This document shows, one piece after another, positions 45,597 to 52,681 of a DNA stretch of 64,000 bases (positions are counted from its first letter, which is position 1; the number at the start of each line of letters is the position of its first letter). The translations under genes and the position numbers were made by a program. The notes below the pieces were generated by a model, which had not been told where the DNA came from, did no database searches, and saw only the letters and a program-made list of their open reading frames with translations. The DNA comes from a bacterium SCSIO 12827. Lineage in GTDB: Bacteria > Pseudomonadota > Alphaproteobacteria > Rhodospirillales > Casp-alpha2. Location: the NCBI GenBank assembly GCA_024397995.1, contig CP073746.1, forward strand, positions 2,477,501 to 2,541,500. The letters are read 5' to 3'.

Positions 45597-46877
45597 TTAT
45601 TTTTGGGCTTCGGCCAGTTTGTTCAGGCAGGCCAGCTCGACACAGGCGCAGACCACTTCCATGGCCTGAACCACTTCCTCCAAAGGCGGCAGGGTCGGCG
45701 CCAGGCGGATGTTGCGGTCGTTGGGATCCTTGCCGTAGGGGAAGCACGACCCCGCAGGCGTCAGCTTGACCCCGGCCTCGCCGGCCAGGCGAATGACCTC
45801 CTTGGCGCAGCCGTCGAGCACGTCCAGGCTGACGAAATAGCCACCCTTGGGTCGGGTCCAGGTCGCGATGCCCTTGCCTACCAGATGCTTGCTCAGCGCA
45901 TCCTCCACGGCCTTGAATTTGGGCGCGCAGAGTTTCGCATGGCCGTCCATATGGGCCAGGATGCCGTCCATGTCCTTGAAGAACTTGACCTGACGCAACT
46001 GGGTGATCTTGTCCGGGCCGATGGTCTCGAAGAACAGATGGTCGAGGGCGTCCTTAACGTTGGCCTTGGAGCCCGCGAACACGGCGATACCCGCCCCCGC
46101 GTATGTGATCTTGGAGGTCGAGCCGAAGATGAACGGCCGGTCCGGGCAGCCCGCTTTTTCACAAGCCGTCAGGATGTCGGCGACCGTGTCCAGGCCCTGG
46201 CCCAGATGGTGCACTGCATAGGCATTGTCCCACAGGATACGGAAATCGGGCGCCGCCGCTTTCATCTTGGCCAGGCGCTCGACGACGGCGTCCGAATAGG
46301 TCGCCCCCGTCGGGTTGGAATACTTGGGCACGCACCAGATCGCCTTGACCTTGGGATCCTTGACCAATTTTTCGACCGCGTCCATATCCGGCCCGTCGTC
46401 CTTCATGTCGACGGAGACCATGTCCAGGCCCAGTTCCTCGCAGATCGCGAAATGCCGGTCGTAGCCTGGCACGGGGCAGATCACGGTCGCCCCTTCGTCC
46501 CGCCACGGCCCCTTCCCGCCGACAACGCCGAAGGTCATGGCCCGGGCGAGGACGCCGTACATCATCTGCAGGGACGAATTGCCGCCGATCACGACCTGAT
46601 CCGCAGGCACGCCCAGGTAGTCACCGAACAGCTTGCGACAGGCAGGGGTGCCAGCAAGGCCCCCGTAATTGCGCAGGTCCGTGCCATCGTCGTCGCGCAC
46701 GTCCTCCGCCGTCACGTTGGTCAGAAGCGCATCGGACAAATCCAACTGCGCCGCCGACGGCTTGCCGCGGGTCATGTCCAGGGCCAGATTACGGCCCCGG
46801 ATATCGTCGTAGTGCCCCTTGGCCCGATCATGGGATTGGGCAAGGACGTCACCGCCCGCCTGTGTCAGGTCCGTCAT
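45597..46877 (-). CDS. Aminotransferase class I, MocR-like/AspAT-Ib type
   Basis: The 426-residue product, starting at the ATG at 46877, belongs to the fold-type I aminotransferases of the PF12897-like group (C. glutamicum-type aspartate aminotransferases). Landmarks are RNLALDMTRGKP near the N-terminus, VIGGNSSLQMM, CVPKYSNPTGATYSD, WDNAYAVHHLG, and the PLP lysine in FGSTSKITYAG. It is convergent with the GntR regulator gene and lies 39 bp downstream of the aldehyde dehydrogenase. The amino donor is unknown; aspartate or alanine is likely. Confidence 0.85.
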   Translation of the reverse strand: MTDLTQAGGDVLAQSHDRAKGHYDDIRGRNLALDMTRGKPSAAQLDLSDALLTNVTAEDVRDDDGTDLRNYGGLAGTPACRKLFGDYLGVPADQVVIGGNSSLQMMYGVLARAMTFGVVGGKGPWRDEGATVICPVPGYDRHFAICEELGLDMVSVDMKDDGPDMDAVEKLVKDPKVKAIWCVPKYSNPTGATYSDAVVERLAKMKAAAPDFRILWDNAYAVHHLGQGLDTVADILTACEKAGCPDRPFIFGSTSKITYAGAGIAVFAGSKANVKDALDHLFFETIGPDKITQLRQVKFFKDMDGILAHMDGHAKLCAPKFKAVEDALSKHLVGKGIATWTRPKGGYFVSLDVLDGCAKEVIRLAGEAGVKLTPAGSCFPYGKDPNDRNIRLAPTLPPLEEVVQAMEVVCACVELACLNKLAEAQK

Positions 46878-46916
46878 GGGTCTCTCCGTGCTCCGTCGCA
46901 AGGGGTCCAGGCGGGC

Positions 46917-48350
46917 CTATAGGCTCGCCTGGGTCACGAACTTCGGGTTCAGATAGGCTTCGATGGCTTCCGTGCCGCCCTCGGACCCATAGCCCGAATC
47001 CTTGACGCCGCCGAACGGCGTTTCCGGCAGAGCGATGCCGTGGTGGTTGATGGAAATCATGCCGCTTTCCACACTGGTCGCCAAATCCTGCGCCGTCTTG
47101 GCCGATCCCGTATAGGCATAGGCCGCCAGGCCGAAGGGCAGCCGGTTGGCCTCGGCGACCACGTCGTCGAAACCCTTGAACGGAGCGATCACGGCGACCG
47201 GGCCGAAGGGTTCCTCGGTCATGATGCGGGCATCCAGGGGCACGTCGGTCAGCACCGTGGGCTCGAAGAAGTTGCCCTTATTGCCGATGCGCTTGCCGCC
47301 GGTCTTCAGGCTCGCCCCCTTCTGCACGGCGTCGCCGATGAATTCTTCCATGGCGGTGATGCGCCGGGGGTTGGCCATCGGGCCCATCTGGCTGTCGGCG
47401 GACATGCCGTCACCGACCTTGATGGACTTCATGCCGTCGGTGAACTTGCTGACAAACTGATCGTAAACGCCTTCCTGGATCAGGAAGCGGGTCGGCGACA
47501 CGCAGACCTGCCCGGCGTTGCGCTGCTTGTTGGCACGCAGGATCTTCACCGCCAGGTCGACGTCGGCATCGTCGAACACGATGGACGGCGCATGCCCACC
47601 CAGTTCCATGGTCGCGCGCTTCATATGCGTGCCGGCCAGGGCCGCCAGATGCTTGCCGACCACGGTCGAGCCGGTGAAGGAGATCTTGCGGATCACCGGA
47701 TGCGGGATCAGGTATTCGGAAATCTCGGCCGGAACGCCGTAGACCAGATTGATGGCCCCGGCAGGCACACCCGCATCGGCGAAGCAGCGGACCAATTCCG
47801 CCGGCGACGACGGGGTTTCCTCGGCCGCCTTGACGATGATGGAGCAGCCGGCCGCCAGCGCGCAGGCGATCTTGCGCACGGCCTGGTTGATCGGGAAGTT
47901 CCAGGGCGTGAAGGCGGCGACGGGGCCCACGGGCTCCTTGATCACCATCTGATAGACGTTGCCGGCGCGGGCCGGAATGATGCGGCCGTAGGTGCGGCGC
48001 GCTTCCTCGGCGTTCCAGTCGGTGACGTCGGCGGCGACCAGGATCTCGCCCTTGGCTTCGGGCAGGGTCTTGCCCTGTTCCAGGGTCATCAGGGGGGCGA
48101 TTTTGTCGGCCCGTTCCCGCAAAAGGTCCGCCGCCTTGCGCAGCACCTTGGCACGATCAAAGGCCGAGACCTGACGCCAGGCCTTGAAGCCTTTGTCCGC
48201 CGCCTCAAGGGCGCGGTCCAGATCCGCCTGTTCCGCATGGGCAACGGTGCCGATGACTTCGCCCGTGGCCGGGTTTTCAATCGGCATCGTGCGGCCCGCG
48301 GCCGCCTTGGTCCATTCGCCGTCGATGAACAGCAAGACATCATTATACAT
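46917..48350 (-). CDS. gabD: NAD(P)-dependent succinate-semialdehyde/glutarate-semialdehyde dehydrogenase
   Basis: The 477-residue aldehyde dehydrogenase has the N-terminal [24 protein letters not shown], the nucleotide-binding [18 protein letters not shown] and [12 protein letters not shown]. The catalytic residues are Glu in [16 protein letters not shown] and Cys in [12 protein letters not shown]. The closest family is GabD/SSADH, though the substrate could also be another short-chain semialdehyde. It is followed by the aminotransferase gene, so the pair could degrade an amino acid to a dicarboxylate. Confidence 0.85.
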
Positions 48351-48479
48351 GGTCGGATTCCTCGAAATTTTGATTAGGGAAGCGGGCGCAGCGCACCCTT
48401 AAGCGGCCGAGCGCCGCCCGTTGCCCGCACCATGCCCGATCCGGCGTCTGGTCTCAATGGGCCAGAAAGGAAAAACAGC

Positions 48480-48750
48480 TAGGTCCTGGGCTTATAAATG
48501 GCGATTGACTTTGATCGGCAAGGAGCCTGTTTCGTTAGGAAAGGGGCCGAAAGCGGGGTCATGCCCCGGTAAGGCCGCTTGACGCGGCGAAACAGGCTCC
48601 TTGCCGACCCCTCCGGGGCGCGGCTCTTTTTGTCGCTGAACTGCGTTATGTCGTCGGTCACGATGCTTCGGCATCGCTCCCTCCTAACGCCTTGTCAGCG
48701 AACAAAAATAGCCGCGTCACAGCAAACGCCATTTATAAGCCCAGGACCTA
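48480..48750. mobile_element. 271-bp nested inverted-repeat element (MITE-like)
   Basis: Perfect 24-bp terminal inverted repeats lie at 48480-48503 and 48727-48750, each beginning TAGGTCCTGG when read inward from its end. Within these are a perfect 20-bp pair (48515-48534 with 48588-48607) and an imperfect third pair (about 48619-48648 with 48685-48716). A C(UUCG)G-capped hairpin lies at 48661-48676 and a CGGGG/CCCCG hairpin near 48554-48568. The RNA or single strand would fold as a cloverleaf. The outer ends read TA, as expected for insertion at TA. It encodes no protein. The 3' end of the prpE-type gene runs into it. Confidence 0.75.
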
Positions 48751-50661
48751 ATCCTTGCGGGACGTGCCGTAACCGATGCCTTCAAGGGCCCCGGTGATTT
48801 CGTCCAGGATCGCCGGGTCGTCGATGGTCGCCGGCATCTTCCATTGTTCGTTGTCGGCGATCTTCTGCATGGTGCCGCGCAGGATCTTGCCCGACCGGGT
48901 CTTGGGCAGACGCGGCACCACCGTCGCCTGCTTGAAGGCGGCCACGGGGCCGATTTTCTGGCGGACAAGCTGCACCACCTCGTTGACGACCTCGGCGGCA
49001 TCCTTGGTCACCCCGGCCTTGAGCACAAGAAAGCCCACGGGCAGTTGCCCCTTCAATTGGTCGGCAACGCCGATCACGGCGCATTCGGCGACGTCCGGAT
49101 GGGCGGCCAGGACTTCCTCCATCCCGCCCGTGGACAGACGGTGCCCGGCCACGTTGATGATGTCGTCCGTGCGCGCCATGATCGAGATATAGCCGTCCTC
49201 GTCGAACACGCCGGCATCGGCGGTTTTGTAATAGCCCGGATATTCGTTGAGGTAAGCTTCGCGGAACCGCTTGTCCGCGTTCCACAGGGTCGGCAGGCTG
49301 GACGGCGGCATGGGCAGCTTGACGCAGATCGCGCCGATTTCCCCCGGCTTCACCGGCTCGTGGGTTTCCTCGTTCAGGACCTGGACGTTCCAGCCCGGAC
49401 ACGGCTTGGTCGGGGAGCCCGCCTTAACCGGAAAGCGATGCAGCCCCATGCAGTTGGAGGCGATGGCCCAGCCCGTTTCCGTCTGCCACCAATGGTCGAT
49501 AACCGGCACGCCCAGGGTCTTCTCGGCCCATTCCAGGGTCGGCGGGTCCGTCCGCTCGCCAGCCAGAAACAGCATCTTGAACGAGGACATGTCGTATTTC
49601 TTCAGGAAGTCCCCATTGGGATCTTCCTTCTTGATGGCGCGGAAAGCCGTGGGGGCGGTGAACAGGATCTTCACCTTGTGGTCGGCGATGACCCGCCAGA
49701 AGGCTCCGGCATCGGGCGTGCCCACGGGCTTGCCTTCGTAGAAGATCGTCGTGCAGCCCTGCAGCAGCGGTGCGTAGACGATATAGGAATGGCCGACCAC
49801 CCAGCCCACGTCGGACGCCGCCCAGTAGACGTCGCCGGGGTCCGCGTCATAGACGTTCTTCATGGACCATTTCAGCGCCACCGCATGGCCGCCGTTGTCC
49901 CGCACCACGCCCTTGGGCTCGCCCGTGGTGCCCGAGGTATAGAGGATATAGAGCGGGTCCGTCGCCGCCACGGGAACGCAATCGTGCGGGGCCGCCTTGG
50001 CGGCTTCCGCGGCCCAATCCAAATAGCCGTATGAGGCCAGGTCCACCTCGCATTCCGGGCGCGACAGAATGATCACCGTGTCCGGCTTGTGCTTGGCCAA
50101 GTCGATGGCCCCCTGCAGCAGCGGCATGTATTCAAGCACCCGGTTGACCTCGATCCCGCAGGTCGCGCTGACGATGGCCTTGGGCGCCGCATCGTCGATG
50201 CGCACGGCCAGCTCGTTCGAAGCAAACCCGCCGAACACCACGGAATGAATGGCCCCCAGGCGCGCGCAGGCCAGCATGGCGATGGCCGCTTCCGGGACCA
50301 TGGGCATGTAGATGATGACCCGGTCGCCCTTGCCGACACCCTGGGCCGCCAGCACGCCCGCGAATTTGGCGACTTCGTCACGCAACTGCAGATAGCTGTA
50401 CTTGCGCTGTGTGCCGCCGGTCACGGGGCTGTCGTAGATCAGGGCCGTGCGGGCACCATTGCCCTCGTCGACATGACGATCCAGGCAGTTGTAGCAAGTG
50501 TTCAACTCACCGCCCGTGAACCAGCGATAGATGGGCGCGCCGCTGTCATCCAGCACCTTGTCCCACTTCTTGGTCCATACCAGGGCCTCCGCCGCCTCGC
50601 CCCAGAAACCGTCGGGATCATCGAGAGAACGCGCATATGCGGCGTCATAGGCATTGGTCAT
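48748..50661 (-). CDS. prpE: Propionyl-CoA synthetase (PrpE-like, acetyl-CoA synthetase family)
   Basis: The 637-residue ANL-family ligase begins YDAAYARSLDDPDGFWGEAAEALVW, as PrpE does, and has the phosphate loop YTSGTTGEPKGVV, GWVVGHSYIVY, the hinge motif ARTDDIINVAGHRLSTGGMEEV and the C-terminal catalytic Lys in KTRSGKILRGTM. These enzymes activate propionate or acetate with ATP to an acyl-AMP. The TAG stop (48748-48750) is formed by the terminal TA plus G of the inverted-repeat element, so the present C-terminus, SRKD, was probably set by the insertion. Confidence 0.88.
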   Translation of the reverse strand: MTNAYDAAYARSLDDPDGFWGEAAEALVWTKKWDKVLDDSGAPIYRWFTGGELNTCYNCLDRHVDEGNGARTALIYDSPVTGGTQRKYSYLQLRDEVAKFAGVLAAQGVGKGDRVIIYMPMVPEAAIAMLACARLGAIHSVVFGGFASNELAVRIDDAAPKAIVSATCGIEVNRVLEYMPLLQGAIDLAKHKPDTVIILSRPECEVDLASYGYLDWAAEAAKAAPHDCVPVAATDPLYILYTSGTTGEPKGVVRDNGGHAVALKWSMKNVYDADPGDVYWAASDVGWVVGHSYIVYAPLLQGCTTIFYEGKPVGTPDAGAFWRVIADHKVKILFTAPTAFRAIKKEDPNGDFLKKYDMSSFKMLFLAGERTDPPTLEWAEKTLGVPVIDHWWQTETGWAIASNCMGLHRFPVKAGSPTKPCPGWNVQVLNEETHEPVKPGEIGAICVKLPMPPSSLPTLWNADKRFREAYLNEYPGYYKTADAGVFDEDGYISIMARTDDIINVAGHRLSTGGMEEVLAAHPDVAECAVIGVADQLKGQLPVGFLVLKAGVTKDAAEVVNEVVQLVRQKIGPVAAFKQATVVPRLPKTRSGKILRGTMQKIADNEQWKMPATIDDPAILDEITGALEGIGYGTSRKD

Positions 50662-50852
50662 CGGTGGAGCCTCCCTTTACGTCAGCGCTATGGCCGTTAT
50701 GCCGCCCTGTCCCCGGTTTCGAGGCCGCGGCGTTTATCTGGGCAGTGTGGGCCAAAACAGCATTTTTTGCCAAGGTGCTTTGTGGCACATTGACCCTCAG
50801 GTCCGCAGTCAACGAACGGGCCCGAATGTAACGGATTTAACCGGAGGCCGAC

Positions 50853-52489: not shown

Positions 52490-52557
52490 GTCATTCCCGC
52501 GCAGGCGGGAATCCATATCCGCGATGAAGGCTGGACCCCCACCTTCGCGGGGGTGAC
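52490..52557. repeat. Dispersed palindromic repeat (double hairpin)
   Basis: ATTCCCGC (52493-52500) pairs with GCGGGAAT (52505-52512), and ACCCCC (52535-52540) pairs with GGGGGT (52549-52554). The outermost GTCA/TGAC also pair. The sequence GTCATTCCCGCG...GGCGGGAATCC...CTGGACCCCC...GGGGGTGAC is the well-known type of short REP-like palindrome found in many copies in alphaproteobacterial and other genomes. It lies 3 bp after the acyl-CoA synthetase stop. Confidence 0.75.
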
Positions 52558-52681
52558 GTATGGGGGCGGGTCGCGTCAACCGCATCAAAGGTCGCACTGC
52601 GCCGACCATATCAAGGGGGCGGCGCCGTGCCGACCGCGCCAACCCACGGCGCCGCGTTCCGCCCATACAGTTCATACAAAA

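Follow-up and report, generated by a model that had tools for sequence, protein, structure and literature searches.

Bacterial MITEs are usually regarded as decayed insertion sequences. The Correia/NEMIS, ERIC and RUP MITEs, as described in PMC2229807, need no ORF, have terminal repeats and TA ends, fold stably, lie between genes and have ends in common with an insertion sequence, and the element reported here resembles them in all of these features. It differs in size, at 259-272 bp against 100-200 bp, and in a conserved twin-arm core that is kept across families while the ends are exchanged, a property not noted among the MITEs in those parts of PMC2229807 that entered the comparison. CIR repeats (Caulobacter, Brucella; Chen and Shapiro 2003) are likewise alphaproteobacterial and intergenic, with TA termini and two long inverted-repeat arms joined by a linker. 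By the description in PMC2229807, however, they are about 110 bp long with unpaired ends and a GANTC loop, whereas the present element has 267 bp, paired ends and no GANTC, and on these three points it is set apart from CIR. CGTC-tagged REPs, in the portion of PMC3733652 consulted, are also mostly alphaproteobacterial and mostly head-to-head dimers, with no transposase known. Their CGTC tag stands before a single stem of 8-9 bp that starts with AT and has a loop of 4-5 and a CCA tail, whereas each arm here is built of three stems with two conserved internal loops, an anatomy that does not fit a CGTC REP. A CGTC-REP-like head-to-head pair of the kind shown in that portion of PMC3733652 does lie elsewhere in the window (the whole 64,000-nt stretch of the SCSIO 12827 genome that was analysed), at 52490-52558, as GCGTCATTCCCGCGCAGGCGGGAATCCA with an inverted partner CCACCTTCGCGGGGGTGACG.

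The open-licence literature yielded no fitting description of twin-arm elements; subscription papers and ISfinder lie beyond that search, and an earlier description is possible. Within this literature, the available sections of PMC3733652, PMC2229807, PMC5082802, PMC1273637 and PMC10969869 held none. Rfam 15 has no match to window positions 46800-50800 up to E 1, and at 10 other loci gave one tRNA and one sub-threshold match, both outside the elements. Intrinsic terminators were considered and dropped, as T-runs are not kept across the family. We class the element as a kind of MITE with an unusual conserved core, and this core matches no described family that could be searched.

The element and its insertion at a prpE-type gene

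Two minus-strand genes flank the element, one for a prpE-type synthetase and the other for an aldehyde dehydrogenase. The parts of the element are as follows (R2 is a covariance model defined below).

48480-48481: left TA of the target duplication (empty site in sister genome G031, GGAC-TA-GCTG)
48480-48503, plus strand: left terminal inverted repeat with TA, 24 bp, perfect
48482-48748: mobile element GG...CC, 267 bp (from the repeats and the empty site)
48515-48607, plus strand: arm A, 93 nt, motif on the plus strand (from the fold)
48528-48595, plus strand: arm A motif core AGG...ACG, pair 13/58 A.G (R2 match, E 4.2e-15)
48608-48618: small central hairpin CCCC-TCC-GGGG (from the fold)
48619-48716, minus strand: arm B, 98 nt, motif on the minus strand, UUCG-type tip (from the fold)
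48633-48701, minus strand: arm B motif core AGG...ACG, pair 13/58 C.A (R2 match, E 3.9e-11)
48727-48750, minus strand: right terminal inverted repeat with TA
48749-48750: right TA of the target duplication, the first two bases of the prpE-type TAG stop (minus strand)
48748-50661, minus strand: acyl-CoA synthetase gene of prpE type (propionate-CoA ligase models of NCBIfam fit best, scoring below their cut-offs)

A preliminary description, made from the sequence alone, had reported perfect 24-bp terminal repeats, a perfect inner 20-bp repeat and a third imperfect one, folding as a cloverleaf with a UUCG-capped arm, and all of these are present. The terminal repeats extend to 28 bp at 96% identity, the inner repeat lies at 48515-48534/48588-48607, and the third, imperfect arm has the tip GATGC-TTCG-GCATC. 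The 24-mer of the terminal repeat occurs in the 64-kb window at the two ends only (expected 0.00). Folding of the 271 nt as a cloverleaf gives -171.7 kcal/mol, compared with -94.8 (sd 5.0) for shuffled sequences (z -15.3; 0 of 200 shuffles as low), an energy that bears out the suggestion of a structured nucleic acid. The ends do read TA...TA, as had been stated, but the empty site in G031 assigns both TAs to the target duplication, so that the element proper is GG...CC with a TA on either side. With 267 bp, terminal inverted repeats and no transposase frame inside, it is a short non-autonomous element of the MITE type.

Seven of the eight genomes searched in the genus, the window's own included, have a match to the C-terminal part of the synthetase. 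Counted from the K of KTRSGK, the window protein and its six orthologues alike end 51 residues further on. At this place the element-free G031 has GGAC-TAG-CTGTTTTTCC, and the window has GGAT-TAG-[element]-TAG-CTGTTTTTCC. To judge from this alignment, the insertion duplicated the TA of a pre-existing synthetase stop and rebuilt the TAG, because the element begins with G. The TAG at 48748-48750 had thus been placed correctly within the right repeat, although two of its bases are target TA. The further proposal that the insertion fixed the C-terminus fails, since G031 has a TAG there without the element and six orthologues end at the same residue; a shared C-terminus and stop in an element-free strain is what the preliminary description had itself named as counter-evidence. 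In G028 and G030 (L115, L116) the prpE site has 18 bp between two TAs that resemble both repeat tips, probably the remainder after deletion of the palindrome, and in G032 the site has a different sequence with no trace of the terminal repeats. Among 44 copies, a stop codon is formed at 56 of 83 tested ends. At 20 of these 56 ends, in 18 elements, the stop terminates a reading frame of 100 codons or more; among flanking YTAR sites, a rough control, 38 of 227 do so (Fisher p 0.003).

Copies, target site and ends

DNA matches to the window element were found in 10 of the 48 family genomes, its own included. Full-length copies are 70-79% identical to it, and genomes of genus g2 have several each. 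Aligned together, 27 full-length copies (that of the window among them) span 274 columns; arm A is missing from five shorter copies, of 167-184 bp. The 21-base end pattern revealed further copies in Hyphomicrobiales and other records, and in further orders, among the matches listed. In its own genome (G000) the window element is single-copy by DNA similarity, and the three remaining matches are its own arms matching each other. A search by structure identified a second twin-arm element there (G000:C1 1350611-1350873, L259:1954-2216), of 263 bp, with ends TAGAGCCTATCATCTTGATACGG and a sequence unrelated to the first. The copy search proposed earlier therefore succeeded for relatives and returned only a structural relative at home, and the lack of any second copy, which had been named as grounds for rejection, does not hold for the relatives.

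Mobility is shown by the dispersed copies together with empty sites, of which there are three pairs: window/G031, L011/L051 and L029/G003. The earlier suggestion of a MITE-like mobile element is borne out by these and by the TA duplication, and the proposed empty-site alignment finds G031 unoccupied at the prpE locus and the TA duplicated in the window. Filled L011 and L029 read TG on the right, whereas their empty sites have TA. For the 32 copies of the window's family, position -2 on the left is a pyrimidine in 31 of 31 and position +2 on the right a purine in 30 of 32; right +1 is A in 13, G in 12 and T in 7. Rhizobial copies are framed by T|A in 11 of 12 cases. The flanks fit a YTAR target. 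The right-hand TG or TT of g2 copies does not follow from plain TA duplication.

Solitary ends were found at 14 loci plus L008 and L014; several are remnants (for example L045 compared with L027), and no transposase-bearing copy was found behind them at these loci. A repeat of about 113 bp abuts several copies in G050, a Hyphomicrobiales MAG (L037, L046, L059, L076, L095, L102, L103 and L106). Plasmid searches with the window element and with L221, L246 and L259 gave no match, and those with other elements gave weak partial matches (L226 to four records, L262 to two, L222 to one). The viral contigs searched gave one, chance-like, match.

A transposase was found next to an end of the window family's type. 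In G051 (record VGEV01), 22 of 22 nt of the f1-type family repeat, TAGGTCATGAACTCATAAATGG, adjoin the start of a transposase that scores above the cut-off of PF13340 (IS5 family); one end of this insertion sequence is known, as the contigs end inside the element. The left ends of family copies have 20 or 21 of 21 nt in common with it in 35 of 44 cases, and the window copy is identical at 18 of 22. Four changes distinguish the window ends from the family consensus, and all are present in both repeats. Complete IS5-family relatives with both ends, of 832-883 bp, occur on plasmids of Indioceanicola, Methylocystis, Geminicoccaceae and Sinorhizobium, and the Methylocystis relative is annotated as an IS5 family transposase. 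We take these PF13340 insertion sequences to be of the IS427 group. They resemble the window element in the terminal repeat CTAGGTC..GNACTCATAAA and the YTAR target, and differ from it in their length, their transposase frames and the lack of visible arms; an R2 search of the four plasmid records holding them found no arm. In the window's family an IS5-family (PF13340) transposase is likely, from the matching ends, to be the mobiliser of the element, and we hold with high confidence that the family is a mobile element with IS5-type ends. The search for a full-length insertion sequence with the same repeats, which the preliminary description had proposed, is thus answered by the G051 end, with the window copy itself agreeing at only those 18 positions. 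G000 encodes no PF13340 transposase, so that nothing resident would move the window copy, which is probably stranded. PF13340 is also absent in five of nine other lineages with elements. Where it is present in G358 the ends of the insertion sequence do not match those of the elements, and in G387 they differ, with a partial fit only. For most end types a transposase was looked for through PF13340 and not found.

The twin-arm core

The rhizobial copies were out of reach of a sequence profile built on the interior, but were found by a covariance model. This model, R1, built from the 27-copy alignment, detected full-length elements of 202-272 bp in nine further genomes of 385 in the class, and partial matches only in two more. 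The terminal repeats of these elements differ (AGAGCGG..., GTGCCCCC..., AGGGTCC..., AGACCCTG...). Folded singly, most form two large arms around a small hairpin. A common motif is found in arm A and in the reverse complement of arm B, that is, on opposite strands. It consists of stem 1, N-A-G-G-M, stem 2, a 3-nt bulge and stem 3 with a small loop, followed by a 2-nt bulge, stem 2, R-A-C-G-M-Y and stem 1. AGG lies opposite ACG within 4 nt in 53 of 63 arms and in 20 of 23 genome-by-arm groups. Fifty-two of the 63 arms, anchored on AGG/AC[GA], make up alignment A3 (six lacked the anchor and five were dropped by hand), so that columns 10-12 and 59-61 are conserved partly by choice; R2 is the covariance model of A3. 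At 28 loci chosen for one arm the second is inverted in 20, with the arms 101-107 bp apart in most and the terminal repeats unrelated, and a relaxed search added three second arms at the expected place. A conserved twin-arm core, kept while the terminal repeats change between lineages, is very probable on these grounds. The Notoacmeibacter copies are outliers; they form part of the model, yet R2 finds none there at E 1e-4. Locus L238 (G236, 1501-1840) has three successive arms (+ at 1501, - at 1603, - at 1773).

At E 1e-5, R2 matched 53 of 385 class genomes, ten of which had been used for the model; these first class scans scored the best 5 (R1) or best 13 (R2) candidates per genome. In a sample of the phylum, R2 matched 38 of 398 genomes, 16 in the class and 22 outside, and an inverted pair 100-108 bp apart was found at E 1e-5 in 8 of the 16 and in none of the 22. 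Single matches are therefore not safe. Of the cases outside the class, one or more seem genuine and the majority unproven: G559 has 12 R2 matches at that cut-off, and its best locus has a second arm at the right place with 21 bits. A deeper R2 search of 22 genomes or records gave most arms in G002 (76), G050 (71), G411 (58), G387 (53) and G559 (38), with 34 in G008, 4 in G000 (two elements) and 1 in sister genome G031; there were none in Nonlabens, four plasmid records, G028, G032, G048 and G051. An arm pair is carried by a plasmid of Agrobacterium sp. MA01. One element in G387 is followed, about 130 bp downstream, by a tRNA gene (L163 1903-1976).

The paired positions of the arms covary. In A3, 21 of 23 pairs have changed on both sides, in a total of 323 cells compared with 102 (sd 8.2) when shuffled (0 of 500 shuffles as high) and at most 120 in slid-structure controls. 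The same count was made on A4, which comprises 56 arms from 34 loci without A3 arms (27 genomes outside the model and the second G000 element) that were found by R2 itself, and gave 301 cells against 89.6. Columns 13 and 58 lie within an internal loop and are neither anchors nor pairs of the model. They are A.G in 31, C.A in 19 and otherwise in 2 of the 52 A3 arms, and in the 56 arms of A4 they are A.G in 29 and C.A in 27 with no exception. Both states occur in several genomes, often in the two arms of one element, as in the window, where arm A has A.G and arm B has C.A. A13.G58 beside G12.A59 would presumably form a tandem sheared G.A pair.

If an arm acts as a single strand, one-sided changes are expected as G.U over A.C on the acting strand. 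On the motif strand, G.U exceeds A.C by 83 to 27 in A3 (groups 18 to 4; sign test p 0.004) and by 59 to 21 in A4 (genomes 17 to 3; p 0.003), counts in which orientation and the training of the model on the motif strand favour G.U somewhat. By arm, the figures are 43 to 14 for arm A on the plus strand and 46 to 17 for arm B on the minus strand. An alternative count over the union of both strands' folds gives 80 to 42 for arm A and 60 G.U to 59 A.C for arm B, and the 27-copy family shows a mild bias, its sign partly reversed as expected for arm B. We take the excess of G.U on the motif strand to be real but not clean. We infer selection on each arm in the form of a folded single strand, probably of RNA.

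Origin and possible function of the core

The reading that we favour, and consider probable, is a non-autonomous MITE-like transposon at YTAR sites, with IS5-type ends and an ancient twin-arm core selected as a folded strand. An IS5-family transposase would move the element to YTAR sites, duplicating the TA, and the core would be an ancient module of two inverted arms with one conserved motif in each, each on its own strand. As arms A and B are opposite-handed, either strand presents the motif exactly once, and the orientation of insertion is immaterial. Insertion at YTAR sites, which are often stop codons at the ends of genes, makes read-through RNA, in our view, the likeliest use. In transcripts that read through the 3' ends of genes, the arm would fold as RNA; a host or element protein might bind it there and shield or process the 3' end, and such binding could make the insertion tolerable or useful. 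Given the conserved core, which is itself highly probable, RNA is somewhat the likelier acting form, ahead of single-stranded DNA. A broader proposition, that these elements form a widespread, unrecognised mobile superfamily in which the heritable core, instead of a gene, is the opposite-handed pair of structured arms, a strand-specific RNA or ssDNA device with ends borrowed from whichever TA-targeting transposase is available, is put forward tentatively, at a little below even chances.

The element might instead be an ordinary deletion derivative of an IS5-family element, its palindromes by-products and their pairing kept by strand-switching quasi-palindrome repair. The IS5-type ends and TA target agree with such an origin, perfect palindromes are common among MITEs, and the four end changes of the window copy are found in both repeats. 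Repair would, however, yield complementary loops, whereas the internal loops are unpaired and conserved, columns 13/58 alternate between two non-Watson-Crick pairs, and the core persists through a complete change of ends; we disfavour this explanation and consider it quite improbable. The preliminary description's version, in which an IS630/Tc1-like transposase moved a MITE and the insertion fixed the C-terminus of the synthetase, draws on the TA at both ends. The family ends match an IS5-family PF13340 element (PF13340 being what the search covered) and the synthetase stop pre-exists, so that the IS630/Tc1 assignment is not supported and has very little probability.

Hairpins serve mobility in the REP/RAYT and IS200/IS605 systems. 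The arms could similarly act as ssDNA, for example when extruded from the lagging-strand template, and be bound by a nuclease or transposase that aids mobility. With its arms of opposite hand the element shows the motif on each of its strands, DNA too can form G.T pairs and sheared G.A pairs, and the ends are exchangeable while the arms are kept. Against this, the TA duplication and long terminal repeats suggest a DDE enzyme acting on double strands, and we regard action as ssDNA as unlikely, though well above the two preceding alternatives.

Under the favoured reading, of a MITE-like transposon whose core is selected as a folded strand, the covariance model provides a means to find such elements in many genomes, where they may be unannotated. 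An element may also overlap an annotated hypothetical protein, as does one arm inside an ABC-transporter operon on a Nitratireductor thuwali plasmid. An internal folded module is what persists across bacterial families, and its non-Watson-Crick pairs bear signs of selection, while the ends that a transposase would use are replaced. If this is true, the question becomes which protein or process reads the motif, and it may be approached with a 69-nt arm.
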